From Zeus faber (lineage: Eukaryota; Chordata; Actinopteri; Zeiformes; Zeidae), in contig OY482846.1 in the NCBI GenBank assembly GCA_960531495.1, positions 38,469,065-38,533,064 of the forward strand: 64,000 bases of DNA. The letters run 5' to 3'. This document shows positions 85-62,303 of the stretch, one piece after another. Both the position numbers and the translations under genes were made by a program. How positions within the stretch are numbered: position 1 is the stretch's first letter; each line of letters begins with the position of its first letter. Below the pieces are notes generated by a model. It saw nothing but the letters and a program-made list of their open reading frames with translations, ran no database searches and was not told the origin of the DNA.

Positions 85-1583
85 CAGCAGGCAAGACTGG
101 TATTTTGGCCTCTGGGCTGAGAAAACACCTTCCTCAGACGGACTGTCTCCCTGTCTCCTTACTTTCAGGGCAAATAATCATGAGACTCTGGGATGAGTTC
201 TGGACGCTCCACGGACCATTTTCCTCCCCCCCATCGGACAACTGACGTGGCTACGCTGTCATCCTTAGCGGCAGCTATAACAAAATCAGTATTTTAATTT
301 ACCACGGATGATCAACCTAAAAGAGCACTAGAATAATCGACTATAGATCAAACAGGATCATCCGTGGTTAAAAGTACTTGTTCAACATTGTGACTTGTCT
401 AATTGAGTTTTAGCCTGTTTACCGTTTGAGATTTCCCCCGAACATTCTTCCGATGATTTCCCACATTATTCAATGTTTTTGTGTTGCCTCTATTATCTGG
501 GTTTTTTGGAGAGTTTGAACGGCAGTGATCTGGCCTGTCTTTGCGTCTCCCCCTCCCATTCTAAGATATTCCCGCAGTAGGAAACGGTGACACAGTTCTA
601 GAATTTAGTGAAAAGGTTGTGTTCTGGTGAGGTGAGGCGAGGTTGAACTAAATTGGAAAACAGGAGCTTGTTACCCAGCAACGTACCCAAACCCATACCT
701 CCGCATAATCACAGCACACCAACGTTCTTCAGACAGTCAAAGACAGAACAAGCAAACAGGCGCAAAATCAAAACCCACTCTCGTCTGGCGGAGGGAGATG
801 AGTCGATGAGTTCCTCTCGATCCTTCTCGGAAATGCATGAGGTCCACTTGTGCACGGGGTTCTTTGTCTGAATACACTCATCAAAGTGGTTCCTTCAGAT
901 TCAGATTAGCACCACGCTGTGGAATCCGGTGTCGCGTTTCCTGTTGTTCTCTTTGAGCTGACTCACGGCGGCACCTACAGAACGTAACGCTTGGATGCAG
1001 ATTATTGTACGGCGGAGAGTGAATATATCACCATGTATAGCAATGCGGCGCAAAGACGCTAATATCTATCCTCCCAATTTCAGAGAAATTGAATATGATG
1101 TCGGGAGCCCAGTACACCCATGCCCAACGAATAGAAATACGGTCACGAAAAAATATGAGTAAAAGAACACAAGTTATTTATTTGCCGTACTGTTGCAATT
1201 GACATGGTGAAACCCATTCAGATTCCTTAATTTCTGCAGTTGCTATTTACCTAATCACAGGAACATAATATCACTGGTGAGAAAAAGAAAATTGTGACCC
1301 CGGCCAGCACAAGCCTAAACAGTGTTTACTGGTATAAGCTATATAATAATTCACTTAATAGCAGTTCATATTCAGTTATCCAAAGCCGTACATCTACCAT
1401 TATCATGACTGTGGAAATCTCCATTCTGATTGGTAAATGGAACAATCAATGGGCGACTCGAAGAGATCAATGCAGATATGTCAAATTTAAAATTAATAAC
1501 AGCAAATAAGCTTGATTTTTTTTTTTGTAAACGCATGTTCACTGTTTTTCTCAGCGCACCGTTAAATTATTAAGTGAGCAGCG
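85..1583. other. intergenic, no gene recognised
   Basis: About 1.5 kb of mixed composition. Only short unrelated open frames (about 70 codons) are present, with no recognisable motif. The only structure I see is the small palindrome at 301-368. Confidence 0.5.
301..368. repeat. small hairpin, 13-bp perfect arms
   Basis: ACCACGGATGATC at 301-313 is the exact reverse complement of GATCATCCGTGGT at 356-368, with a 42-base AT-rich loop. It could be a tiny MITE remnant or a chance stem; no flanking duplication is obvious. Confidence 0.55.
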
Positions 1584-1685
1584 GTGCAACCGGTCATTAT
1601 CGCAAATTAACCCCCTCCAGGGTGATGCCAAAGACCTGATCACCCTGCCGGGGGTTCATTTGCGATTCTGACCGGCTGGCTGCAC
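1584..1685. repeat. long near-perfect hairpin (MITE or pre-miRNA-like)
   Basis: The left arm (1584-1626, GTGCAACCGGTC...CAGGGTGAT) pairs with the right arm (about 1638-1685, ATCACCCTG...GACCGGCTGGCTGCAC). Each arm is about 43-48 bases with a few mismatches and small bulges, and the loop is only ~11 bases. A transcript from either strand would fold into a single ~100-nt stem. The size and short loop suit a miRNA precursor, but very short palindromic DNA transposons look the same, and I think a MITE is the likelier origin. Confidence 0.6.
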
Positions 1686-2019
1686 ATTATCCCTTTCACA
1701 TGGGTGGGTACTTCAGTGTTCTAGCTACAAGACATTGATTTTAGCCTGTGCAGCTATTCAATGTGTTTCCAGTAACAATTCCAGGTGGGCTAGGCATCCT
1801 AAGTGGCATAATACCGTTTCAACGGTTCAATCTTAAATTATTCACAAACAGATATTGCTTATGCGTGTCTTCGTGCACTGAGGCTGACGCAGCACTCTGC
1901 TTTAGTCAGCATGAGGAGCATTAGGAGTGATGTCTGTGTAGACTCTGGTTTTATTTGATTAATGAGCAATGCTTAATGTACAATAAATTACTCCATAGGT
2001 GATGTAATACTATAGGGTC

Positions 2020-2020
<1 letters not shown>
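1686..2020. other. intergenic, nothing recognised
   Basis: AT-rich sequence between the hairpin and the (TAA)n tract; no coding frame or repeat recognised. Confidence 0.5.

Positions 2021-2061
<41 letters not shown>
2021..2061. repeat. (TAA)n microsatellite
   Basis: About 13 uninterrupted TAA units directly abut the broken inner end of the Tc1 copy that follows. Confidence 0.9.
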
Positions 2062-2062
<1 letters not shown>

Positions 2063-2067
2063 ACAGG

Positions 2068-2631
2068 ATGCAGATTCCATTGCTCCATGGTCCAGTTTCG
2101 AGACTCACGGCATTGTAGGTGCTTTCAGAGGTGGACAGGGGTCAGCATGGTCTGACTCTGACCGGTCTGCGGCTACGCATCCCCATACGCAGCAAGCTGT
2201 GGTGCACTGTGTGTTCTGTACCTTTCTATCATAACAGCATCAACTTTTTCAGCAATTGGTGCTGAAGGAGCTCTTCTGTGGGATCACACCAGACGGGCAA
2301 GAATTCGCTCACAGGTGACAGGGTCATGGGTTTTGATAGGTCATGGGTCATGGGCTTTGATAGGTACTAACCACTGCATACCAGGAACACCCCACAGGAC
2401 CATCAGTCATTTTGGAGATGCTCTGACCCAGTCATCGAGCCAGCAAAATATGTTCGTTGTCAACGGTGCTCAGATCCTTACGCTGGTCCATTTTTCCTGC
2501 CTCCAACACATCAACTTCAAGAAGTGACTGTTCACTTGCTGCCTAATATATCCCACCCCTTGACAGGTGAGAAGATCAATGTTTTTCACTTCATCTGTGA
2601 GTGGTTTTAATGTTGTGGCCGATCAGTGTAT
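2068..2631 (-). mobile_element. Tc1-like transposon, 5' part, reverse strand
   Basis: Read on the reverse strand, it starts with the terminal sequence TACACTGATCGGCCACAACA and runs through the untranslated leader (AAGGGGTGGGATATATTAGG, AGTGAACAGTCAC) into the N-terminal, DNA-binding half of a Tc1/mariner transposase gene. The matching forward-strand phrases include GACCATGGAGCAATGGAATC near 2068-2100. The 3' half with most of the DDE catalytic core is absent and the element stops at the (TAA)n tract. A stretch near 2290-2365 is rearranged, with GGTCATGGG appearing twice. Known family: cut-and-paste transposons inserting at TA. It is dead. The same ends recur at 16296 and 27337. Confidence 0.85.
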
Positions 2632-2661
2632 AATTTCCATTCCATATCCAGGTATATACTG

Positions 2662-2665
<4 letters not shown>

Positions 2666-2693
<28 letters not shown>
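2666..2693. repeat. (AT)n microsatellite
   Basis: About 14 AT units just outside the Tc1 end; Tc1-like elements insert at TA, so the location is unsurprising. Confidence 0.85.
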
Positions 2694-2696
<3 letters not shown>

Positions 2697-2699
2697 GTG

Positions 2700-3240
2700 C
2701 TCTGTGATTATATGCGGGGACATTTGGTGCTGACTGAGGGACTCTGACCATGTTGAACCAGATGTCACGGAACATCGCTGATTCTTTCCTTAATCGCTCT
2801 CCTATTGCGGGAGCCGCGCCGGGCTTGGGTTGGGAGGACAGCGAGTTTTAGTTGTTGTTGTTTGAGGACGACCCGCATCAGCTCAGCAGCTTAGGGGGCC
2901 TCATCCCCGCTGCGCGCGTAGAGCAGAGGAATCACAACCGCTCCTGCTATACAATTGGCTGTTCATGTCACACGGTCATAAAGCATCTTACTCTAAATCT
3001 CATTTTGTTAATTTTGTTTACGAAGAGCGGCGTGTCAGTCAAGAGGATCAGCTGAATATTTTGGGTCAAAGTTTTTCGGTATTTCACACATTTCTGCTCC
3101 ATATGTGGATCGATTTGGATGAAACTTCAAGCACGAGGTATTTGTGACATTCTGATTCAAACAATACCGTGTTCGTAGCTTCTGCCATTCTTCTGTTTCA
3201 AAAAGTTTTAGATTTCAAAATTCTGAGAATTTGTGGGGAA
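2700..3240. other. intergenic, nothing recognised
   Basis: Mixed-composition sequence with a short GC-rich patch (2800-2930). Open frames of about 60 codons show no recognisable protein motif. Confidence 0.45.
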
Positions 3241-3246
3241 AAATAT

Positions 3247-3257
3247 CAATAATAATG

Positions 3258-3294
<37 letters not shown>

Positions 3295-3309
3295 TAATAA
3301 TAATAATAC
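3247..3309. repeat. (AAT)n microsatellite
   Basis: Interrupted run of about 20 AAT/ATA units. Confidence 0.9.
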
Positions 3310-3479
3310 TATAGCTGCAAGCAGCAATACACAAGGTCCAGTTTAGTCGTTTTAGGTATGTATTACAATTTTCTCGGTTCTGTGAAACACAGCACGAGTT
3401 GCAAATGGCAACCGCCTGCGTGTGGTCGCCAATCATGGTGTGTCACACACACCACAATATACTCATTAAAATACACTCA

Positions 3480-3715
3480 CTCATGGCGACGGACACACAC
3501 ACATACACGCCTCAAATGGTGGCCGGTGAAATGAGATCTCTGCTTTCGACCCATCCTGGCTTGTCCTTCCTTCAGGGGGCAGCCAGGAGCAGTGGGCAGC
3601 GTACAGCAATGCCCAGGGACCAATTAGGAATGTCCATCGCTCGTCCGATGACAATGTTCTGCATGTTTTTGGTGGGGTTCCTTACATGGAGGACTCCACG
3701 GGGGTTGGGTCATGT
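3480..3715 (-). mobile_element. tRNA-derived SINE fragment, reverse strand
   Basis: Phrases such as GGTGGCCGGTGAAATG, CCATCCTGGCTTGTCCTTCC, AGGAGCAGTGGGCAGC and ATGTTTTTGGTGGGG are shared with the copies at 7020-7455 and 7964-8326 and, reverse-complemented, with 61697-62131. The tRNA-like head is lost; only the body and part of the tail remain. It is more diverged than the other copies, so probably the oldest. The 122-codon forward open frame across it is incidental. Confidence 0.8.
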
Positions 3716-4010
3716 ATTGGCAGCCATTACATTTTGTGGAGGCTTTGTAAAACACATGTTTTTCTGATGACACAAATGACAATATTCCCCATTCTTCAAA
3801 TTTAAATGTAAGACCAGTCAAACATATAAAACTCAAATTTGTTTAATTTAATAGTTCGGAGGAATGATGACAAGACAGTTCAGATAATGGTTTTATTGAA
3901 CAGTTGTCCAAACCAGCTGGAAAAAACAACCAAACAAAATATCCCACTATTTATAAAGGTCACACGACATGTAATCATTTTCGATTACCAGAAATGGAAA
4001 TCTTCTGAAA

Positions 4011-4640
4011 TTACAAAAACATTCCCGTAGATAAAAATACAACTGTATTTAAAAACATCATGTTATATATGTCATCATTTAATACAAAAAGACAATGTAA
4101 AGAAAGATACTTTTTGTAATGACAGTTTGACATTTGTTCTATATTTATTACAAAAACTAGGCCATCTTCACAAAGGTAAAGTATCCAATTATTCACCTTC
4201 ATTTTCTGCTTTTCCATTTTTTCTACTTTTGTAATATTATTCACCATATTGCTGTTGGTGTAGGTGACACAAAAGAAGCCGCCTGTAACAAATTGTTGTT
4301 GGATGGCGGAAATGTTTGTCGTCACGTCGGTCCTTTTGTATTTTACCAGGTAACGGTGCATGGCAGACAGGGGAACAGTTACTGTAACGTCAAGATGAGG
4401 TTGCACTGCATCATTTGTAATTCCTAGTGCCACTAATGTTGCAGTTGTATTAATCCTTGTGTTGGAACTTATTACAATGTTGGCAAGTGTTCTCTTCATC
4501 ATCACTGTTGAAACTGTATGTGAACCTGTTTTTTCCACCGAAATAAATACAACTTTAATTAAAAGGAAGTACGTACAGGAATTTATGTTGTCTTTATTTT
4601 TAAAATAATGATTTCTTGGTTCAGGTGGTTCATAACACAA
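4011..4640 (-). CDS. hypothetical 209-codon open frame, unknown
   Basis: The longest non-LINE, non-microsatellite open frame in the window, and it lies in AT-rich DNA where stops should be frequent. The product (MCYEPPEPRN..., ending STGMFL) has a Thr/Val/Asn-rich middle (about residues 35-135, e.g. DVTVTVPLSAMHRYLVKYKR), no clear signal peptide and a lysine-rich patch (KVEKMEKQKMK). I do not recognise the family. It lies on the same strand as, and ~170 bases downstream of, the peptidase-like trace at 4814-5358, so both may be parts of one decayed mobile element. It could also be a chance frame: no splice sites, start context or poly(A) signal argue strongly for a host gene. Confidence 0.3.
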   Translation of the reverse strand: MCYEPPEPRNHYFKNKDNINSCTYFLLIKVVFISVEKTGSHTVSTVMMKRTLANIVISSNTRINTTATLVALGITNDAVQPHLDVTVTVPLSAMHRYLVKYKRTDVTTNISAIQQQFVTGGFFCVTYTNSNMVNNITKVEKMEKQKMKVNNWILYLCEDGLVFVINIEQMSNCHYKKYLSLHCLFVLNDDIYNMMFLNTVVFLSTGMFL

Positions 4641-4813
4641 CTAGAGTTTAATCTGCATTTCTTCACTGTACTGCCAGTATGACCAGTAATGACACTAAAT
4701 GATTCTTTATATTGTCACACGTCTTTGATGTCATTTTTGGCACAAAATGTGGCTTATCATGTTTACCTTTGAATTCTTTGGGCTGGAACGGTTGATTTTG
4801 GCGTATGCCTTTG

Positions 4814-5358
4814 CTACCCCGTAGAATTCACTAACTCGGTTCTGTCGTCGGGTGCCAATAATATCTGCCTGTAGTCCGGTGATTTCAAATATCGCTTGAC
4901 TTTAAATGAATGTGTAGTATCACGGAAATGACTAGAGACAGATTCGATCTCGCTGTGGTAAGCTGCAGAACCACTGGGTGAGTCATACTCTTGGTTTCCA
5001 ACGTTGCTCGTTGCGTGCGAATCAACAACTGCATACCACGATCCCTGCTTGATAATTGTACATGTATTGACAGTAATTGTAAATAAGCATGCGGCATCAT
5101 TTAGCATCTCCAGATTGCTTCATCAATTGGCATGGCTACATTATAAAATGCAGAGACATAGTGATCAACACCAGTACGGCCAGTAAATGACTGAGCATAC
5201 GTTATTTTGGATGTGGTCTGACAGAAAGTATGTTTGCTTGGCAATTCTGTTATTGTAATCCAATCTCTTCCTAAAACATTGTCTTCTATCCTACCAGACG
5301 TTTTCATGTCCTGATTAAGGCTTGTTGCCTCTCTCAAAACATCATCGAGGTCACTCGC
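4814..5358 (-). pseudogene. peptidase-like coding trace (mobile-element fossil), left copy
   Basis: Reverse-strand frames in this interval contain the stretches DLDDVLREATSLNQ, WITITELPSKHT, YAQSFTGRTGVDHYVSAFYN and SWYAVVDSHATSN. The combination of an 'ELP' segment, an aromatic-rich segment and a C-terminal 'DSHA' His motif resembles the cysteine-peptidase (OTU- or herpes-tegument-like) domains carried by some large eukaryotic transposons such as Helitron-type elements and by virus-like elements. Which of these is the source cannot be settled by eye. The trace is broken and incomplete; it is treated as a fossil. Its inner part is duplicated in inverted orientation at 5542-5830. Confidence 0.4.
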
Positions 5359-5828
5359 CGTTCATGTCAAAACATTTTGGCTCTTGCTGTTAAGTACTGC
5401 TGTCAAAGTGATAACTGCACGCTGCTTGTTCGCCCTGATGAAATGAGCTCCTTAAAACTGATATTTATGGGGAATGAACAGGTATATTTAAAGGCTTCTC
5501 ATCTACATTATCACTATATGTATATATATATGTATATTATCACTTTCTGTCAGACCACATCCAAAATAACGTATGCTCAGTCATTTACTGGCCGTACTGG
5601 TGTTGATCACTATGTCTCGGCATTTTATAATGTAGCCATGCCAATTGATGAAGCAATCTGGAGATGCTAAATGATGACGCATGCTTATTTAAAAATACTG
5701 TCAATACATGTACAATTATCAAGCAGGGATCGTGGTATGCAGTTGTTGATTCACACGCAACGAGCAACCTTGGAAACCATGAGTATGACTCACCCAGTGG
5801 TTCTGTAGCTTACCACAGCGAGATCGAA

Positions 5829-5830
<2 letters not shown>
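4941..5830. repeat. inverted duplication, 289-bp arms, 312-bp spacer
   Basis: Bases 4941-5229 and the reverse complement of 5542-5830 align end to end without a gap. I count 8 mismatches in 289 positions (about 97% identity). The match stops abruptly at both ends: the outer right end abuts an (ATT)n tract and the inner ends differ at the first base. Of the 8 differences, read in the shared peptidase-like frames, 6 change the amino acid and 2 do not, so there is no sign of selection on the protein after the duplication. The whole 890-bp structure could form a large cruciform or a long double-stranded transcript. Confidence 0.95.
5362..5829 (+). pseudogene. peptidase-like coding trace, right inverted copy
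   Basis: The right arm (5542-5830) repeats on the forward strand the YAQSF...HYVSAFYN and WYAVVDSHATSN stretches of the left copy. The spacer just before it, also read forward, contains SCQNILALAVKYCC (from 5362), a Cys-plus-hydrophobic-helix pattern of the kind that holds the catalytic Cys in such peptidases; this is a weak, eye-level resemblance. If it is real, the spacer and the left copy belong to opposite orientations of one ancestral region, i.e. an inversion breakpoint lies near 5350. Fossil, broken and non-functional as far as can be seen. Confidence 0.3.

Positions 5831-5893
<63 letters not shown>
5829..5893. repeat. (ATT)n-(AAT)n palindromic microsatellite
   Basis: About 11 ATT units switch to about 10 AAT units, so the tract is its own reverse complement and forms a hairpin. 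It begins exactly where the right arm of the inverted duplication ends. Confidence 0.9.
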
Positions 5894-6029
5894 TTATTCA
5901 TTAATTTTATTTATTCATTAATGTATTAATTTATTTTTGGTAGTAGTAGATATACTAGCACAGCACTCCCTGTCACTTTATACAATTTCATTCAATTAAA
6001 TAAATGGCTTCGCTCGGGTCTTCTCACAA

Positions 6030-6830
6030 CTCCATGCAGATAACTTTTCTCCCAGTCAACGCTGCCCGTTCACGGCCGCATGGCTTGGCGGGTTCCAGAT
6101 CTCTGCGGCGGCAACAATCACTTCTTTCTCAATATTGTTTTTCGTCTCGGCGGTCCTGGGCGCCGCCCCAAATGGAGGCTCTCAGCGAGGACAAGGTTTA
6201 ATTAGATGTGACTCTCTTCTCCACCTTCTTCGTCGTCAGTGACACCGACGACAACAACGACAAGAACAACAAAACACAATCAGCGGCCGGCTCCCGTTCA
6301 TTTCTCTTCCCTCTCTCTCTCTCTCTCTCTCTCGCTCGCTCGCTCGCTCTCTCTCTCTCCTCCTTATCGCAGATCTCCACTCGGTCTTTCTATCAACAGG
6401 GCCCCATCCACTCTCCCCCTTAAACACCTCTTTACTCAAGCCTGATCCTGGCTCCGCAGACAGCGTGGGAGGGGAGGGAAGGGCGGGGGAGAACGAGGGG
6501 AGGGGAGAGATCTGGCCCCTTTCATTTCCGCTGCTTTTCTGCGCTTCCGTGGTTCCGGAAAAAACGACCCCGCCATCTCTCCCCCATCTCTCCCCCTCCC
6601 CCGCTACCCTCGAGAGAACCCGGCCGGTCCGCAATCTGAGGCCTTACAATGCGGTCCATGGCCCGCGATGATAGATCGCACCGTATGTGGAACCGGTATT
6701 GTCCGACCCTCGCTGATAATCCAGCAGCGTCCGTGTCCGTGCGTGGCAGCGCACGTGCCTGGGTTTGCCACGAGCGCGGTCGTGCGAACAAAAACAGGCG
6801 CCCTGGCTCCGCGTTACCCTTCTCAATTCC
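6030..6830. other. GC-rich block, possible CpG island
   Basis: GC- and CpG-rich sequence in an otherwise AT-rich setting, interrupted by a (CT)n tract. Open frames on both strands (up to 132 codons) are low-complexity Arg/Ser/Pro products of the composition and not gene-like. It could be a CpG-island promoter or GC-rich repeat DNA; I see no TATA box or transcript structure that decides. Confidence 0.35.
6308..6360. repeat. (CT)n polypyrimidine tract
   Basis: CT repeat with CGCT interruptions (CTCGCTCGCTCGCTCG) inside the GC-rich block. Confidence 0.9.
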
Positions 6831-6837
6831 TCGCAGC

Positions 6838-7545
6838 CAACGATTCGTTCCCCGTGAACGAATCGCCTCACGACTCGGGGGTCACGAGTCGCGGAGGGGT
6901 TGCCCGCTTTGTGCTTTCGTGACTCGGAAACCGCAGCCGGGGCTCTCAGGTGTTCACCGAGACTCCGCTCTCGATTTTCGCCGAGAAAAAACAAAAACAA
7001 AAAAAAAAACGAGAGACACGAGGTAAACAGAACAGACTTTATTTATCACGCAACACACTATAACACATGCTTGCACACACACACACATGCTTTTGATGGT
7101 GGCCGGTGAAATGGATTCTCTGCTTTTGACCCATCCTGGCTTGTCCTTCCTCCGGGGGCACAGCCAGGAGCAGTGGGCAGCATATGTGGACGCCGCCCGG
7201 GGACCAGGTGATAAATGTCCATTGCTGGTCAGACGATGATGTGAGCATGTTTTTGGTGGGGGTCCTTACTGACGTGAGGTGGAGGAAACCCCATGTGAGC
7301 ACGGGGAGAACATGCAAACTCCACACAGAAAGGCTCCTATTCGGGAGATAACCCGCCGGAGCACGGTGCCAACAGCGCCCCAGGCGGGAATCAAACCCAG
7401 GACCTTCTTGCTGTGAGGCAGCAGTGCAATACACTGCGCCACCGTGCTACACAGTGACGGCCTACGAATGAACGTAGAGTCGGAAAATCCAACGACTTTT
7501 CTTAACGAATCGGTCGTAAAGACCCAAATCGCGAACGAGCCACTA
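6838..7545 (+). mobile_element. hAT-like non-autonomous element split by a SINE
   Basis: The left part (6838-about 7010, AACGATTCGTTC...GAACGAATCG..., GACTCGGGGGTCACGAGTCG) matches the 5' portion of the family. The right part (7456-7545, ACGAATGAACGTAGAGTC...CCAACGACTTTT) matches the downstream portion of the copy at 24345-24745 (AAACGAACGCAGAGTCTG...CCAACGACTCG). Between them lies the SINE at 7020-7455. This copy is unusually GC-rich compared with the others. Confidence 0.6.
7020..7455 (-). mobile_element. tRNA-derived SINE, near full length, reverse strand
   Basis: Read on the reverse strand: a tRNA-like head (GGTGGCGCAGTG as box-A region, GGTTTGATTCC as box B), then the fish-type segment AAGGTCCTGG, GTGTGGAGTTTGCATGTTCTC, a body ending CCATCAAAAGCATGTG, a CA-rich stretch, and a tail near the forward-strand ACTTTATTTATCACGC. 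RNA polymerase III promoters of this kind drive SINE transcription; mobilisation needs a LINE's enzymes. The insertion interrupts a hAT-like element, so it is the younger of the two. Confidence 0.85.
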
Positions 7546-7960
7546 TTGTTTGCAATTCCCGAGTGCCACGTCAGTCGGTTAGAAAAACAAGGCTGTTGAC
7601 ATGATACACAGTATATTCTATATTCAAACATGAAAAACAATACAATTAAAAAAAATACATATATATATAAAACATTTCTGAGCTGCCCTGTGATTTTCTA
7701 ATGAGATGATGCGGAACAAAGTAAAAATTTAATTACGTTAACTTTGACACCCCGTGATGTGACCTCACTAGTATATTTAGTTAATTATAATTAAAATATA
7801 AATAATTAATTGAAAAAATTAAAGAAGACTTAAAGAAAGATTTGTTTTGTTTCGTGGTTATTAACATTTCTACCATCTTAAAACTCCGGCAAGGCGTTCC
7901 TGTATGTCAAGTCGTCCGACTCTTCAATGACAGACGGGAATGGCGAATGTTTAAGCCGTC
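7546..7960. other. AT-rich intergenic, nothing recognised
   Basis: AT-rich sequence with an (AT)n stub near 7660; no coding or repeat identity seen. Confidence 0.5.
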
Positions 7961-7963
7961 AAA

Positions 7964-8326
7964 CAAGAAGAAGAACAATCTTTAATCGTCACGCAACACA
8001 CCACACTACAACACATGCACACACACGCATATGCACATGCTTTGGATGGTGGCCGGTGAAAGGAGGCCTCTGCATTTAACCCATCCTTGTCTTGTCCTTC
8101 CTCCGGGGGCACAGTCAGGAGCAGTGGGCAGCATTCCTGGACGCGCCCGGGGACCTGGTGACGAGTGTCCATCGCTGGTCAGACGATGATGTGTGCATGT
8201 TTTTGGTGGGGGTCCTTACTGACGTTAGGTGGAGGAAACATCTATTTGGGAGATAACCCGCTTGGAGCACGGTGCCAACAGCGCCCCAGGCGGGAATCGA
8301 ACCAAGGACCTTCTTGCTGTGAGGCA
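7964..8326 (-). mobile_element. tRNA-derived SINE, head-truncated, reverse strand
   Basis: Same family as the copy 0.5 kb upstream, ~85-90% similar by eye: GGTGGCCGGTGAAAGG, CCTTCCTCCGGGGGCACAG, GTTTTTGGTGGGGGTCC, GGCGGGAATCGAACC (box B). The forward-strand start AGAAGAACAATCTTTAATCG shows the tail (ATTAAAGATTGTTCTTC on the sense strand). The segment containing GTGTGGAGTTTGCATG is deleted. The 5' head is cut short and ends in a perfect 12-bp fold-back. Confidence 0.85.
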
Positions 8327-8335
8327 AGAAGGTCC
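8306..8335. repeat. 12-bp perfect fold-back at the SINE 5' end
   Basis: GGACCTTCTTGC (8306-8317), six-base loop TGTGAG, then GCAAGAAGGTCC (8324-8335). The first arm is ordinary SINE head; the second is its reverse complement and replaces the missing head. Confidence 0.9.
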
Positions 8336-8536
8336 AAACTGTCTACAAACTGTACAAACCGTCTACTTCACGTGAGCGGAAACTTCCCACAGATTCTTCC
8401 TGGATTCGTTTCCAGATAAGCCTCCCCTTGTCCATTCAGGCGCATCCCGTAGCGGCCGAGCATCTCCAGAGCATCTCCCGAGCTGCCAGGAATGACTTCG
8501 GAACATGACGTTTCGGAGTCTCGTTTTGTGCGCCCA
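8336..8536. other. unassigned spacer
   Basis: About 200 bases with no recognised identity, between the SINE and the (AAC)n tract. Confidence 0.4.
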
Positions 8537-8614
8537 CAAAACAACGAGAACAAGAACAGCAACAACAAGAACAACAAGAACAAGAATAACAAGAACAAGA
8601 ACAACAAGAACAAG

Positions 8615-8652
<38 letters not shown>

Positions 8653-8659
8653 GAACAGC

Positions 8660-8693
<34 letters not shown>

Positions 8694-8694
8694 C
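8537..8694. repeat. (AAC)n / (AAG AAC)n trinucleotide tract
   Basis: About 158 bases of AAC units with AAG and AGC interruptions, becoming purer toward the 3' end. The Asn-, Thr- and Leu-rich open frames over it are artefacts of the repeat. Confidence 0.95.
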
Positions 8695-9137
8695 CCTATA
8701 AAGGTGCAGATGAAACAAGGGAAAATAATGCTTCCTTTACCACGTTTTGACGAGTCTAAAAGTTCGATCCGTAATTTTTCTGTTGTTATCCGTGTTCATA
8801 TTCATATAATTTCACACATATTCATCCATTCCGTTTAAATGATATTCAACGACTGTATTTACAACTAGAAAAGAGTACGAGCAGCAACCGCCCCGCCATT
8901 CACACTGTTTTACAGTGGAACCCAGGAGTCGTTAAATCCCAGTTGGTACTTCCCACTTCGGAGCTAAATTAGTTTTCCAGTGCTTCGTTTGGAAAACGGG
9001 ACTCCGGCAGCGAGCTCGTGTTTGTTTGGCGAAGCTTGTAATTATATTGTAAATTTTAGGTGTTCGCACTAGAACTGAAATTACAGAGGATCTTGGAATC
9101 CCACTTAATTCCAGCTTAAACGGCCGTTCCCTTGCAC
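8695..9137. other. intergenic, nothing recognised
   Basis: No coding, RNA or repeat identity recognised before the LINE fragment that starts near 9138. Confidence 0.45.
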
Positions 9138-11905: not shown

Positions 11906-13215
11906 TGAGGACCCCTGGTGAGGTCAGCATTGACAGTTCTTATGGCTTGCGGGAAAAAAATCCGTCTCAGTCCCTCTGTTCTCGCTGTGTGACTGCGGAA
12001 GCGTTTGCCTGACCGCAGCTGCTGGAACAGTCCGTTGTTGGGGTGATGAGGATCCTTCATGATCCTGCGGGCTCTGCTACTACACCTCCTGGTGTATAAG
12101 GCAGTGATGTTGCCTATCAGGAGGTTCTCCACTGCCCCAGAGATGAAGGACTTGAAAATTCTCACCGAGACCCGGATTTCCTAAGCTGCCTGTGGTGGTA
12201 AAGACGCTGCCTCGCCTTTCTCACCAGAATGTCTGTGTGTAAAGTCCATGTTAAATCCTCTGTGATGTGGACTCCCAGGTTCTTGAAGCTGCTCACCCTG
12301 TCGACAGAAGTCGCATTAAAGACCAAAGGCGCGTGCGTCCTTGGTTGTAATCCACGCCGAAAGTCCACAATCAGCTCCTTAGTTTTGCTGACGTTCAGGT
12401 GGAGGCTGTTGTCCTGGCACCAGAGTCGCCAGTCGCCGTCGGTGATCAGGCCCATGACAACAGTGTAGACAGCAATGTGTCTACAGGGAGTACAGTAGGG
12501 GGCTAAGGACACAGCCCTGGGGGGATCCTGTATTCAGGGTGAGGGAGCTGGACATGTGCTTCCCCACCCTAGCCACCTGGGGCCGGGCTGAGAGGAAGTC
12601 CAGGATCCAGGCACACAGCGTTCATTCAGTCGAGCTCCTTCAGCTTGACAGCCAGTCTGGTGGGGACCATAATGTTTAAAGCTGAACTATAATCGATGAA
12701 CAGCAATCTCACATAGGCCCCCTCCTGACCATCCAGGTGCGCGAGCGTGGTGTGCAGTACCTGGGAAACTGTGTCATCCGTGGATCTGTTCTGCTGGTAC
12801 GTGAACTGCAACGGGTCCAAGGTGCGGGGGAGGGAGGCGCAGATATAATCCTTAATCAGCCTTTCATCAAACACTTCATGACCAACGAGGTGAGGGCCAC
12901 CGGACGGTAGTCATTCAGGCAGGCAGGAGAGGCGATCTTCGGGACAGGAACGACGGTGGCCCTCTTGAAGCAGGACGGGACCACTGATTCAGCCAGGGAG
13001 ATGTTGAATATCCTAGTGAACACTAGGGCTAGCTGGTTATCACAGATCTTCAGTACTCGCCCAGATATGCCATCTGGGCCCGCAGCTTTTCTGGTGTTCA
13101 CCCACATCAGAGCTGACGTCATGCTCAGACACTGAGAGTGCGCGCTCATCCCCAGCAGTGTACCTCCAATTTGCCGGCGAGCTAGCGGTGCTGTTGCCAG
13201 ATTCAAACCACTCAT
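11906..13215 (-). pseudogene. LINE reverse transcriptase, interrupted
   Basis: Reverse-strand frames give, in order: [33 protein letters not shown] (RT motifs 1-2), DPLQFTYQQNRSTDD, LLFIDYSSALN (motif A with its catalytic Asp), [15 protein letters not shown] (motif B), then VVMGLITDGD and WCQDNSLHLNVSKTKELIVD, KNLGVHITEDLTWTLHTD, ARQRLYHHRQLRK, and at the end LYTRRCSSRARRIMKDPHHP. The sequence jumps from PLLYSL almost straight to TVVMGLITDGD. The motif C FADD box expected between them, with its two catalytic Asp residues, is missing. A second loss removes the region between RQLRKS and RIFKSF-ISGAVENLL-ITALYTRR that the copy at 17.5 kb still has. No activity is possible. Confidence 0.9.
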
Positions 13216-14316
13216 AAAAGGAGTTCAGTTGGTTGGCTATGGATGCGTCGACACTCGTGGCTGGGGAGGAGCTGCTCTTGTAGTTTGTTATAGTCTGCAG
13301 CCCCTGCCATAAGCATCTGGTGTCCCGTTGCTCCATCTGTAGCTCCACAGTCTTTCTGTACATCTGTTTAGCATCGTTCACCGCCCTCTGCAGATTGTAT
13401 GACGCTGCTTTGTAATTGTCCATATTTCCAGATAAAAGACCGTCGTTGTAAGCGGCCGTGCGAGCATTCAGAGCACAGCGGATGGATTTATCGACCCACG
13501 GCTTCTGGTTTGGAAATATCCGAACTTTCTCCGTGGGAACGATACTGTCCGCTAACGTAGCCACGAAGCTCACTGCTACGTCCGTAAACTCGCTGACGTC
13601 ACTTGAACTTGATTGGAACATGTCCCAGTCGACGTCAGTCAGAGCGGCCTGAAGCGCAGCCTCTGATTGGTCCGTCCACCGCTTCACTTCCCTCGTCACC
13701 ACCAATTCTCGCAGGATCAGGGGCTTGTAAACGGGAACCAGCGAAATGGTGGCGTGATCTGATTTCCCGAAAGCAGGGAGCGAGACGGTCTTGTACCTGT
13801 TCTTGTAAGGGGTGTAACAATGGTCCAAAGTTCTATCTCCCCTGGTGGCACACGTCATGTGTTGGTAGAAATTAGGCAGAACTTTTTCAATGTTGGCCCT
13901 GTTAAAGTCCCCACTCACCACCACAACCGCGTCGGGATGTTTGTTTTGAAATCCGCGCAACACATCATAGAGGTCCGATAATGCTGTGTCGGTATCCGCT
14001 TGTGGTGGAATATAAACGGCTCTAATGATGACGGTGCTGAATTCCCGGGGGAAGTAGAATGGATGGCATAAGAGGGTCAGCTGTTCCAGGTTCAGCGAGC
14101 AGGAGCGGGAGAGAGACTTGGTGTTGTTGGGGTTACACCAGCGGTTGTTTACCATGAGGCAGACGCCTCCACCTTTGGATTTCCCCAGCTCCCCCGATCT
14201 GTCGCCGCGGAACATGGAGAAGGACTCGGCTGGACGAATGGCTTCATCCAGCACCAGCGGGGTCAGCCATGTCTCTGTCAGGCAGAGGACCGAACAGTTT
14301 CTCGTGTCCAGTTGGA
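13040..14316 (-). pseudogene. LINE apurinic-type endonuclease domain
   Basis: A 404-codon reverse-strand frame (ATG at 14254), preceded in frame by LCLTETWLTPLVLDEAI up to 14316, shows the exonuclease-endonuclease-phosphatase fold motifs used by LINEs to nick target DNA. These are TETWL (catalytic Glu), GGGVCLMVN, the long strand with VVVVSGDFNRA, GDRTLDHCYT and KSDHATISL (catalytic Asp/His pair). It continues into the linker ([46 protein letters not shown]) before the reverse-transcriptase part in another frame. The N-terminal part lies in the gap. All the endonuclease motifs visible here are intact, so decay is recent to moderate. Confidence 0.9.
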
Positions 14317-14326
14317 ATTAAATCCT

Positions 14327-14526
14327 NNNNNNNNNNNNNNNNNNNNNNNNNNNNNNNNNNNNNNNNNNNNNNNNNNNNNNNNNNNNNNNNNNNNNNNNNN
14401 NNNNNNNNNNNNNNNNNNNNNNNNNNNNNNNNNNNNNNNNNNNNNNNNNNNNNNNNNNNNNNNNNNNNNNNNNNNNNNNNNNNNNNNNNNNNNNNNNNNN
14501 NNNNNNNNNNNNNNNNNNNNNNNNNN
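14327..14526. other. assembly gap (200 N)
   Basis: Exactly 200 undetermined bases. A round number usually marks a gap of unknown size between joined contigs. The LINE endonuclease on the left has no continuation on the right, so unseen sequence or a misjoin is likely. Confidence 0.98.
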
Positions 14527-16360: not shown

Positions 16361-16445
16361 TATTTCAATCTCTCTGATCGAATTTATTCTTGACACAAAA
16401 ATTACTTGACATTAACAGGTTAATTAACTGCATGTTGTGACATCA
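16361..16445. repeat. short dispersed duplication, copy 1
   Basis: ATTTCAATCTCTCTGATC...TTTATTCTTGAC is followed closely by ATTACTTGACATTAACAGG. The first half recurs at 16945-16981 and the second at 17237-17270, where a LINE-tail block separates them. Confidence 0.6.
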
Positions 16446-16749
16446 TCATCAAATTAGTTATAATTGTGCAGGTTGTGGCTCTGGGCAAGCATTCCCATCA
16501 TGCGAGCTGTGTGGTGTAGATTAGATCACTCTGTGGTGGTTACAAACTGCGTGTGTGTAGGTGTGTCTGTATCGTCTCACCTGCTCGACGTCGGCGCCGC
16601 TTTTGATTGATATTTTATATTTCTTACCGTTTTTGTAAATAAAGGCTTTCTGTTGGTTTTTTCCCTCCTTACTTTGCAGGATTCAAGGACGTTGTAAGAT
16701 ACAAACTAGGACCCGGAGAGTATAAATAAGAGAAGACAGAAAGTAGTCA

Positions 16750-16870
16750 CCGCTTCTGACGTCATTATGTCACTACATCATTGTTGGCCCACATGGCATC
16801 AAACGGTCAGGCTTCTGTGACTACGTCATCATTGCGACACGGCACCAAACGGTCACCTATCTGTCACTGA
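16750..16870. promoter_or_regulatory. CRE-like site cluster in a degenerate tandem duplication
   Basis: A perfect palindromic CRE, TGACGTCA, lies at 16757-16764, followed by TACGTCATC at 16822-16830 and further TGTCAC/TGTGAC half-sites. The block is two degenerate ~58-base units, each ending in CACCAAACGGTCA or CATCAAACGGTCA. CREs bind CREB/ATF-type bZIP factors. No gene start is visible nearby, so function is unproven and a repeat-borne coincidence is quite possible. Confidence 0.35.
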
Positions 16871-16998
16871 GAGTGCAGCTCTATTTCCACAGACACGTTG
16901 AGTTATAAACTGAACAAACAAACTGTAAAACTAAATAAATAATACTGTATTTGAATCTCTCTGATCATGTTTATTCTTGACGCTCACCTACTTTGTTG

Positions 16999-28503: not shown

Positions 28504-28883
28504 CAAGTGTACAATCTGTGGTTATTATTATACACTTTATTACGAGTAAAAGCCACGTGGTAGAAATGCAGAGCGTGGTGCAAGTGATTAGTCAAATGGC
28601 CCCAAATAGGGCACTGTAACCTTCTTTGGCAGCATTGGCTTGTGTTGATTAGTCGAGATGCGAGTGCAAAGGTATGTTATGCCTCTCATTCTGCAAGTGT
28701 ACAATCTGTGGTTATTATTATACACTTTATTACGAGTAAAATCCATGTGGTAGAAATGCAGAGAGTGGTGCAAGTGATTAGTCAAATGGCCCCAAATAAG
28801 GCACTGTAACCTTCTGTGGGGCCATTAGCTTGTGTTGATTAGTCGAGATGCGAGTGCAAAGGTATGTTATGCCTCTCATACTG
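28504..28883. repeat. 190-bp tandem duplication, two copies
   Basis: Units 28504-28693 and 28694-28883 both begin CAAGTGTACAATCTGTGG (the first unit) and run through TATTATACACTTTATTACGA, GTGCAAGTGATTAGTCAAAT and GATTAGTCGAGATGCGAG to TATGCCTCTCAT. I count roughly ten substitutions and no gap (about 95% identity). No further copies. Confidence 0.95.
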
Positions 28884-31008
28884 CAATGTCAGTAGCCTTT
28901 AATCAAAAGGGAGCAGCACTATGCTAACTAGTTAGTCTAATATAGACAGCTGCTGGTGCGCAAAGCTAAATACAAATAGCAAATAGCAGCAGTGCATAGA
29001 AATAAGAGGCAATGATGCCTTGTACGAGGAAATATGCTGGTAAAGTCAATATGTATGTAAATAAATATGTATCTACTGTATAATATGGTGCAATAGCATT
29101 TTCATATTCGCCTCATTATGTTATTCTATTCCTGTTGTTCCTCTTTTACACGGATAACAAGGAGCAGCTATGTTATCAGCCATCCGGTTTGCTACAGTTA
29201 TGCAATAAGCTATAGAATTACATAATTGTCAATCCTGTGATGTGAGTTACACTGAGAGAACTCTATTTTGGTGTAGGCAGCCCAATTAGGAATTCCGCGA
29301 TCACTAATGAAATACAATCGCCGCTGTTCTGTCAGATTGAGTCGATTCTCTGTACTCATGAATGGCCTCAGATCCCACTTTATTCCTGGAAAGAAGCCAG
29401 CCTGTGGTTTTTATGTGTAAAACAAATTGAAAGTCTTTTTCAAACCAAAATTCCTCCACAGATGTTTAGACTCCTCCGAGAGCAAAACGAGTCGGACCAT
29501 GAATATCTATTTGATTTGTACATTTCCGAGAGACGCGTGGGGATAAATCTTCATCGACCGGGGATGTGCCACCTTCACAGAGAACGGGGTGTACAATGAG
29601 AGCCATGTTAACTTTTAGATTGGCAACGGCCCGACTGCCTAATATGCAGAACAATTGCTCCTTATTCCTCGCGGTGTTCAGTCGGGTGTCTGCTGATTTG
29701 CCTTAACAGTTCAGGATTGTGCTAACGGTGTTAATTTTACTGGACCGGAGTCGAGTGGATGTGCAATGAATCTGGTACCAATATGCTGCCCTTCATTTTG
29801 ATTTTAATTTTTCTCACTCTTCCTGCGACATTATTCGCTGGGGATCGAGGGCTGCCGTAGTGTAGGCACATTCAGGAAGAAATTGCACAATCCCAAAACC
29901 TGCCACTTCAGTTATTGAAACGCATAATTGTTGCCGGTAAACCCGGCTAGGGAGCTCTTTTTGTTGCATGAAAAAAAAAAAAGAATTTATAATTTATAAT
30001 TCCACCTCGAAAATAATGTTCATAACGACACAAAGGTATCAATAAACTGATTGAAGTGGCTGCAAAATATAATTTTAAATCCCAAATCCTTCCAATCCCA
30101 GTAGGAGTATGATCACTTCCTGGAAAAGTGATTGCGGTCCAGGATCCTGAAAGGTGTGTCGTATTGTATATTGATCTAAAAGTCAAAGAGAACAGCAAAG
30201 TGAATAGAGTAAATATTGCTGAAAAAATTGGAACTTTGAATAAAACAATGAAACCTAGCCAAAGACATGTTATGCCCGTTTCTTTATTGTTCTTTTAAAG
30301 GGGTGAGGTAATGGCTTAATCCATCTCTACGAGGCGGAAGCTCTGTCTGAGTCTAATTTTGAGAGAAGTTTCAAGGTGATGAAAATCTGGATATATTTTT
30401 TTGATGGCCTTGAACACATATCCTTCCTGCCGAAGTCTAAAGCATACTTCCTGAGAGCCTCTCATTATGTTCTGCGCAGGTTTAGAATATATCTGGGGTC
30501 TGTCACAGTGGCGCATACACATAAATGAAACGCTTCGCTGATGTCTCGACCTCTCGACAATGAGCATTGCCACTGGCCTTAACCTCCATTATGTCAACAA
30601 TAAGGGAGTTCAACAGCCAAAAGAAAACAATAACCATGATCATTAACATTGAATTTCAATGGATAATTAAATTGGAAAAAAATAAGAGAGAACAGTAAAG
30701 TAGGGTGCGCAGGTAGCAAGTTCAACTTTCATCTTGAACATCGAATAAACAGAAGTAGTTGAATGGATTAAAAAGGGGCCATTTGGACAACCTTTAACAT
30801 GAACTGAATATGAATAGCTTGAGTGTATGGATTTTGCACATCAATCAGTCTTTGATTGCTGTAGAAACTGTGTTCGGTGTCTGACAAGCGATTGATTGGA
30901 GGCAGCTTTTGGCCAATTTTATCTCATTACCTTATTTTCAGTAACTTTTTTAAATTACTCTTTGCTTAAATGACTGTTTACTTTATAACAAGATAAACTT
31001 GAACTTTT
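28884..31008. other. intergenic, nothing recognised
   Basis: More than 2 kb of evenly complex sequence without identified repeats. An 85-codon reverse frame at 30316-30573 (MAMLIVERSRHQRS..., ending SFRLVEMD) is Arg-rich, and I cannot match it to a family. The scarcity of repeats compared with the rest of the window makes this the best stretch in which to look for conserved non-coding elements. Confidence 0.4.
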
Positions 31009-61547: not shown

Positions 61548-62303
61548 CAAGATTCAAGATTCAAGATTCAAGAGGTTTATTCGTCACATACATATACATA
61601 CTTTCATACATATATGCAGTGAAATGTAATGCAACGCACCCGGTGAAAACACACAATATGTCCTAGGAAAAAGTAATACAGTAAGTCCAATACTTACAGT
61701 GGCGCAGTGCATTGCACTGCTGCCTCACAGCAAGAAGGTCCTGGGTTTGATTCCCGCCTGGGGCGCTGTTGGCACCGTGCTCCGGCGGGTTATCTTCCAA
61801 AAACAGGAGCCTTTCTGTGTGGAGTTTGCATGTTCTCCCCGTGTTCACATGGGGTTTCCTCCACCTCACGTCAGTAAGGACCCACCACCAAAAACATGCA
61901 CCCATCATCATCTGACCAGCGATGGACACTTATCACCTGGTCCCCAGGCGCGTCCACGTATGCTGCCCACTGCTCCTGGCTGTGCCCCCGGAGGAAGGAC
62001 AAGCCAGGATGGGTCAAAAGCAGAGGAGCCATTTCACCGGCCACCATCAAGCATGTGCGTGCGTGTGTGTGTGTGTGCAAGCATGTGTTGTGGAGTGTCG
62101 TGTGACGATTAAAGACTGTTTCTTTCTTCTTATAGAACAAAGTAAAACTATATAAAATAAAATGGAATAGATAAAGGGAATAGGCCTATGTATATAGGAT
62201 AGGCAATTATGTATATACAGACATGTGCATTAAAGTGGCATGTGAATGAAGTGAGGTAGTGTTTGTGGGATAATACAGCACAGTATACAACAGTAACAGT
62301 GAC
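61548..62303 (-). mobile_element. LINE 3' UTR (11.4-kb family), reverse strand, split by a SINE
   Basis: Left part 61548-61696: repeated ATTCAAG, GAGGTTTATTCGTCACATAC, ATATGCAGTGAAATGTAATG, ACACACAATATGTCCTAGG and CAGTAAGTCCAATACTT. Right part 62132-62303: ATAGAACAAAGTAAAACTAT, GGGAATAGGCCTATGTATAT and GTGCATTAAAGTGGCATGTG. Together they match the uninterrupted UTR at 11401-11905, where CAGTAAGTCGAATACTATAG is continuous, so the SINE landed between ...AATACT and ATAGAA. Confidence 0.9.
61697..62131 (+). mobile_element. tRNA-derived SINE, full length, forward strand
   Basis: The best copy of the SINE family. It has a head CAGTGGCGCAGTGCATTGC (box-A region), box B GGTTTGATTCC at 61744-61754 and AGCAAGAAGGTCCTGG. 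It then has the GTGTGGAGTTTGCATGTTCTC segment, GGTTTCCTCCACCTCACG, a GAGGAAGGACAAGCCAGGATG body, a variable GTGTGT stretch (62058-62078) and the tail GACGATTAAAGACTG ending in TTCTTTCTTCTT. About 435 bases, unusually long for a tRNA SINE. The 137-codon open frame over it is incidental. Inserted in a LINE UTR. Confidence 0.88.

Follow-up and report, generated by a model that had tools for sequence, protein, structure and literature searches.

The 64,000-nucleotide stretch of Zeus faber DNA analysed here, hereafter the window, contains a long and nearly perfect inverted repeat that very probably arose by a single local inverted duplication inside a dead, most likely Helentron-type, transposon fragment, the likeliest mechanism being a template switch or fold-back. 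Its left arm, the parental copy, lies at 4941-5229 (- strand) and is embedded in the decayed transposon fragment, and its right arm, the reversed duplicate of the left, lies at 5542-5830 (+ strand). Each arm is 289 bp long, the two differ by 8 mismatches and no indels, and they are separated by a 312-bp spacer (5230-5541, - strand). The arm ends are sharp, with 40 bases beyond either end showing no match, and the inverted duplication is thus as the initial annotation had claimed. A BLAST self-comparison matches arm to arm with an E-value of ∼1e-137, which excludes pairing by chance, and no third copy of the arm was found within the 64-kb window (E 1e-3). Directly outside the right arm, at 5831-5893 (no strand assigned), there is an (ATT)n(AAT)n tract that forms a perfect palindrome with arms of 30 to 31 bp. 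When the window and 20 fetched loci (229,455 bp in total) were scanned with simple repeats masked, nine inverted pairs with a minimum length of 60 bp and a separation of up to 3 kb were detected, among which the window arms are the only pair exceeding 90% identity and the only gap-free pair; the 20 loci were picked for carrying the family repeat described below, and the sample is therefore non-random. We consider it very unlikely that the repeat is an artefact of library or assembly, i.e. a palindromic read or a mis-join. Although the window does contain a 200-N gap (14327-14526), this is not nearby, and there are no N letters in or beside the inverted repeat. Moreover, the 8 substitutions, with no indels and with 4 per arm relative to the family, indicate two different sequences rather than one sequence read twice.

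A search of the 803-Mb genome with the left arm returned 314 first-look candidates, 40 of which were scored. Apart from the two arms, which share 97% identity, these comprised 38 genome copies with 74-84% identity to the arm. From these 38, the best 20 were fetched and aligned to window positions 3000-9000, and the full comparison therefore covers 20 of the 314 candidates. In 16 of these 20 copies, a single alignment extends past the left arm on either side, and in the other four (L011, L015, L021, and L024) it passes one end only. By contrast, none of the 20 copies gives an alignment that continues over either end of the right arm. Because the family aligns through the left arm and not through the right arm, the left arm is part of a family copy, to which the right arm is a reversed addition. 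The alignments thus identify the left arm as parental and the right arm as its reversed sister, a direction of duplication that rests on the family alignment and not on an observed ancestral allele. The parental copy corresponds to a decayed transposon fragment at ∼4597-5530 (- strand). It belongs to a dispersed family, most likely of Helentron type, and has a weak coding trace of a viral-tegument-like deubiquitinase (VTD). Genome searches with either the spacer or the left flank as query are consistent with a continuous fragment over this interval. Up to ∼5530, the spacer consists of further 5'-ward sequence of the same fragment, in which the parental element is present once (single-copy), and it ends in an AT-rich junction of ∼11 bp. 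No sequence from the element's 5' part past 5541 adjoins the right arm, and either the copy had been truncated beforehand or the event also deleted sequence. On the outer side, matches elsewhere to the flank at 5896-6400 (among 40 scored of 323 candidates) all fall within a simple repeat at 396-488 of the query, which does not prove that the rest of the flank is rare. Separately, window positions 16435-16909 (+ strand) match the 5' part of the transposon family on the strand opposite to that of the fragment at 4597-5530; because of this orientation and the distance of 11 kb, they were not linked to the fragment as its displaced 5' part.

These comparisons also bear on where the arms come from. 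The initial annotation had placed them inside a mobile-element-like coding region rather than at the ends of a transposon, and had named their recurrence as terminal repeats of a family as the observation that would speak against it. This placement was borne out: the reversed piece is present in none of the 20 fetched copies, which rules out the arms as terminal inverted repeats of the transposon, and there is no other close opposite-strand pair among the 40 scored of the 314 candidates. Because the family is dispersed, as the 314 first-look candidates attest, two close relatives could have inserted independently in opposite orientations, the right one being a truncated fragment. This scenario is, however, highly improbable, since each arm resembles the other much more than it resembles any of the 38 other copies (among the 40 of 314 that were scored), both carry a 4-bp deletion that is absent from the 20 fetched copies, and right-arm alignments never extend past the arm.

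The history of the two arms was reconstructed in a tree containing both of them and the 20 family copies. The arms are sisters with a support of 1.0, sharing a stem of 0.115 and having tips of 0.0148 and 0.0159. Both arms depart jointly from the family majority (defined as at least 60% of copies) in 41 alignment columns, and 14 of these 41 joint states occur in no other copy, including four that make up the 4-bp deletion. This deletion sits at a shift of the reading frame, and such shared frameshifting decay implies that the copy was already dead when it was duplicated. With the 20 copies (21 alignments) as reference, the 8 mismatches polarise evenly, as 4 changes derived in the left arm and 4 in the right, the least certain site being 5002 (13 of 21). 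Their spacing is random-like, both for the longest clean stretch (P = 0.66) and for the variation in spacing (P = 0.63). In a side observation, 6 of the 8 arm differences are transversions, including all 4 right-arm changes, which would be unexpected under neutral decay, although the sample is tiny. It had been proposed that the repeat was either young relative to its surroundings or kept similar by gene conversion. Youth relative to the host copy is upheld by the comparison of stem (0.115) and tips (0.015), but conversion is not needed to explain differences that are split 4:4 and randomly spaced. An old inverted repeat held similar by gene conversion or by template switching between its arms is accordingly unlikely in our judgement: arm-to-arm template switching can homogenise inverted repeats (PMC8604942), but unclustered mismatches, equal tips, and the 4:4 split are what plain divergence is expected to give. 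With only 8 differing sites, conversion of a whole arm would possibly be compatible with the data as well. As judged from these alignments and this tree, one in-place and fairly recent duplication of an already dead copy appears to account for the repeat.

Several features suggest that the family is most likely Helentron-type Helitron debris. Five family frames were scanned for PF04843 (herpesvirus tegument deubiquitinase), which was matched below the cut-off by L017 (1.7e-4), L018 (0.021), and L014 (0.11), and was not matched by L023 and L011. Downstream frames match the otubain family in L014 (E = 2.9e-4) and L016 (0.022), both again below the cut-off. In an alignment of 12 frames, the catalytic Cys is present in all five that cover the site, and Asp-Ser-His is found in six of the seven that cover the second site, the exception being L014 with Asp-Ser-Asp. 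Among frames that were listed and not aligned, Asp-Ser-His is found in L010, L016, L017, and L028, and its place is taken by Asn-Ser-His in L020 and His-Ser-His in L024. According to PMC9741609, the catalytic residues are a Cys and an Asp-x-His, most non-viral relatives of the tegument domain sit in Helentron-type Helitrons, with zebrafish among the hosts, and 121 of these also have OTU domains. Genome-wide, Helitron_like_N has 22 matches. One (C3:33259387, 30.6 bits) is on the same strand as, and no more than 1 kb downstream of, the L011 copy. Another (C17:3536534, 47.8 bits) is likewise on the same strand and no more than 1 kb downstream of the family sequence at C17:3535402, which is a match to the part of the element downstream of the deubiquitinase. 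A third (C2:21724561) lies in L024, ∼2.2 kb from the family copy and on the other strand. None of the 22 matches falls in the other 18 of the 20 fetched loci or in the window. Counting against a Helentron assignment, the PF04843 model run over the genome (E 0.001) gave no match, and 14 controls were likewise unmatched. A herpesvirus origin, as the name of PF04843 might suggest, was set aside in favour of Helentron on the basis of PMC9741609 and the Helitron_like_N matches; a literature search pairing Herpes_teg_N with transposon returned nothing. The family thus resembles the VTD-bearing Helentrons DrT1 and DrT2 of zebrafish (PMC9741609) in its weak VTD-like trace with Cys and Asp-x-His, its otubain-like piece, and the Helitron_like_N matches near two family copies. 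It differs from them in that the window fragment is dead and short, and in that neither the VTD nor the otubain scores reach their cut-offs.

Within the window copy, the VTD trace is split into two open pieces. The first (5104-5361, - strand) lies upstream of the shared frameshift and matches PF04843 with E = 0.011, below the cut-off. The second (4814-5119, - strand) contains the Asp-Ser-His motif, continues beyond the end of the left arm at position 4941, and has no Pfam match on its own. When frames were joined, the window query matched PF04843 with E = 1.6e-4, below the Pfam cut-off, and the right arm alone gave no Pfam match. Two window queries were thus unjoined and two had their frames joined by the analyst, with every PF04843 score below the Pfam cut-off. 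The peptidase-like coding trace of the initial annotation is therefore weak, with matches at 0.011 and 1.6e-4 in its favour and, against it, scores that are all below the cut-off and two of four queries unmatched. The presumed catalytic Cys codon (5419-5421, - strand) is TGT in all nine aligned family copies and encodes Arg in the window copy, in which the catalytic Cys has presumably been lost. Considering both the change of Cys to Arg and the broken frame, the window copy encodes no intact enzyme. Searches of other collections identified no relatives. In PDB, the joined query matched a WD-40 repeat protein (E 2.2e-4), in a stretch that failed when searched alone, and an iron-sulfur protein (E 0.34), and neither was taken as a relative. 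Among viral contigs searched with one 60-aa piece there were 10 candidates, none of which was confirmed, and among phage records there were only two matches (E 6 and 8).

The duplication was most likely caused by template switching during replication or by fold-back repair, in AT-rich sequence. In brief, the growing or broken 3' end of the top strand would have (i) halted in AT-rich sequence near 5541, (ii) switched or folded back onto the opposite strand ∼312 bp behind, and (iii) been extended by copying 289 bp in reverse, and (iv) the reversed copy would finally have been connected with the (ATT)n tract. The inner junction is indeed AT-rich and the outer junction is at the (ATT)n(AAT)n palindrome, and this context, together with a layout of single-copy spacer and reversed arm, fits template switching or fold-back. 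The inner junction has a possible shared 'AC', beyond which microhomology is unreadable without the ancestral letters. Arms of 289 bp and a spacer of 312 bp exceed the size that is usual for short-range template-switch events. Short-range switches are enriched at AT-rich tracts (PMC7954356) and, as argued in PMC8794818, can create reverse-complement hairpins, including microRNA loci. The window repeat is like the template-switch mutations of these two reports in being a reversed copy of nearby sequence made in one step, in forming a near-perfect hairpin, and in having an AT-rich switch site; it differs from them in the larger size of its arms and spacer and in a direction read from family copies rather than from an ancestral allele. 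It also shares the order of arm, non-duplicated spacer, and inverted arm with the fold-back inverted duplications of PMC3907307. In that report, all 21 sequenced junctions had a single-copy spacer; 13 showed inverted microhomology of 2-8 bp, 3 had longer repeats, and 5 contained insertions. However, the duplications in the table rows examined measure megabases and have spacers of 766-70,466 bp, compared with 289 and 312 bp in the window. Inverted triplications have been described as well (PMC13334657, PMC10766186), and the window repeat resembles the small ones of PMC13334657 in arm size (medians there of 148, 160, and 148 bp) and in being ascribed to a replication error, but their median spacer is ∼30 bp and not 312 bp. 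The 312-bp spacer therefore fits neither the fold-back nor the small-triplication range well. Moreover, unlike those triplications (PMC13334657), the window has no third, direct copy past the right arm, which rules out the remnant of an inverted triplication. LINE twin priming was discounted by argument: the family has matches to Helitron parts, and the overlap of the reversed piece with the forward one is complete. The repeat looks like a mutation scar of a known kind in transposon debris, a new example and an ordinary one. Its value lies in being a clean and relatively datable case of a long near-perfect hairpin made in one step within old transposon debris, in which the parent survives beside its product and the differences between them can be polarised with family copies.

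Such hairpins are raw material for hairpin RNAs, and the inverted repeat is a potential hairpin, for which a function is unsupported although not disproved. When folded, its RNA forms the stem, with an energy of -589 kcal/mol, whereas 20 shuffled versions average -224. The initial annotation had suggested that transcription would yield double-stranded RNA and a natural source of siRNA. This role was not corroborated: whichever strand is transcribed, 7 of the 8 substitutions disrupt pairing and one leaves a G-U pair, and the substitutions therefore provide no sign that stem pairing has been maintained. This test rests on n = 8, and preserved pairing would be a sign of maintenance and not a strict requirement. 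Of the 269 21-mers in the right arm, 38 have an exact counterpart in one or more of the 20 copies, which would make targeting of family copies by siRNA possible in principle; if up to 2 mismatches are allowed, a match to a right-arm 21-mer is present in an average of 3.5 of the 20 copies. The layout also resembles hairpin-RNA loci in fly such as hp-ODox2 (PMC10317233), which has arms derived from a transposon (BS2/Jockey) and is thus likewise an inverted repeat of transposon sequence. That locus is, however, a hairpin RNA, and the window hairpin is known from its sequence alone. Considering further that 7 of the 8 substitutions break pairing and that RNAi is constrained in mammals (PMC11239679), a functional hairpin-RNA locus with siRNAs silencing the family would be extremely improbable. 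The same slight chance is given to a newborn hairpin-RNA gene, produced in one step from a dead Helentron deubiquitinase gene and sending siRNAs against the remaining family copies. Any use of the window hairpin thus remains unsupported.

Additional observations were made in the fetched loci and elsewhere in the window. L027 (3890-4386) and L028 (3885-4384), which are ∼766 kb apart on C10, share a 502-bp block around the VTD region that is 95.6% identical, and no other close colinear match was found between these two loci; the block could reflect either ectopic conversion or a dispersed duplication of the same element piece. A minisatellite with a 51-bp period is present upstream of the VTD region in L028 (∼1561-3000) and in L023 (∼2485-2871). 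No Rfam match and no tRNA were found in the window. Positions 28504-28886 harbour a tandem direct duplication of 193 bp with 95% identity, and copies of one dispersed repeat, up to 91% identical, are found at 7029-7445, 7965-8326, and 61696-62131. Finally, a 425-aa open frame at 13040-14317 (- strand), which presumably resembles a LINE, ends beside the 200-N gap.
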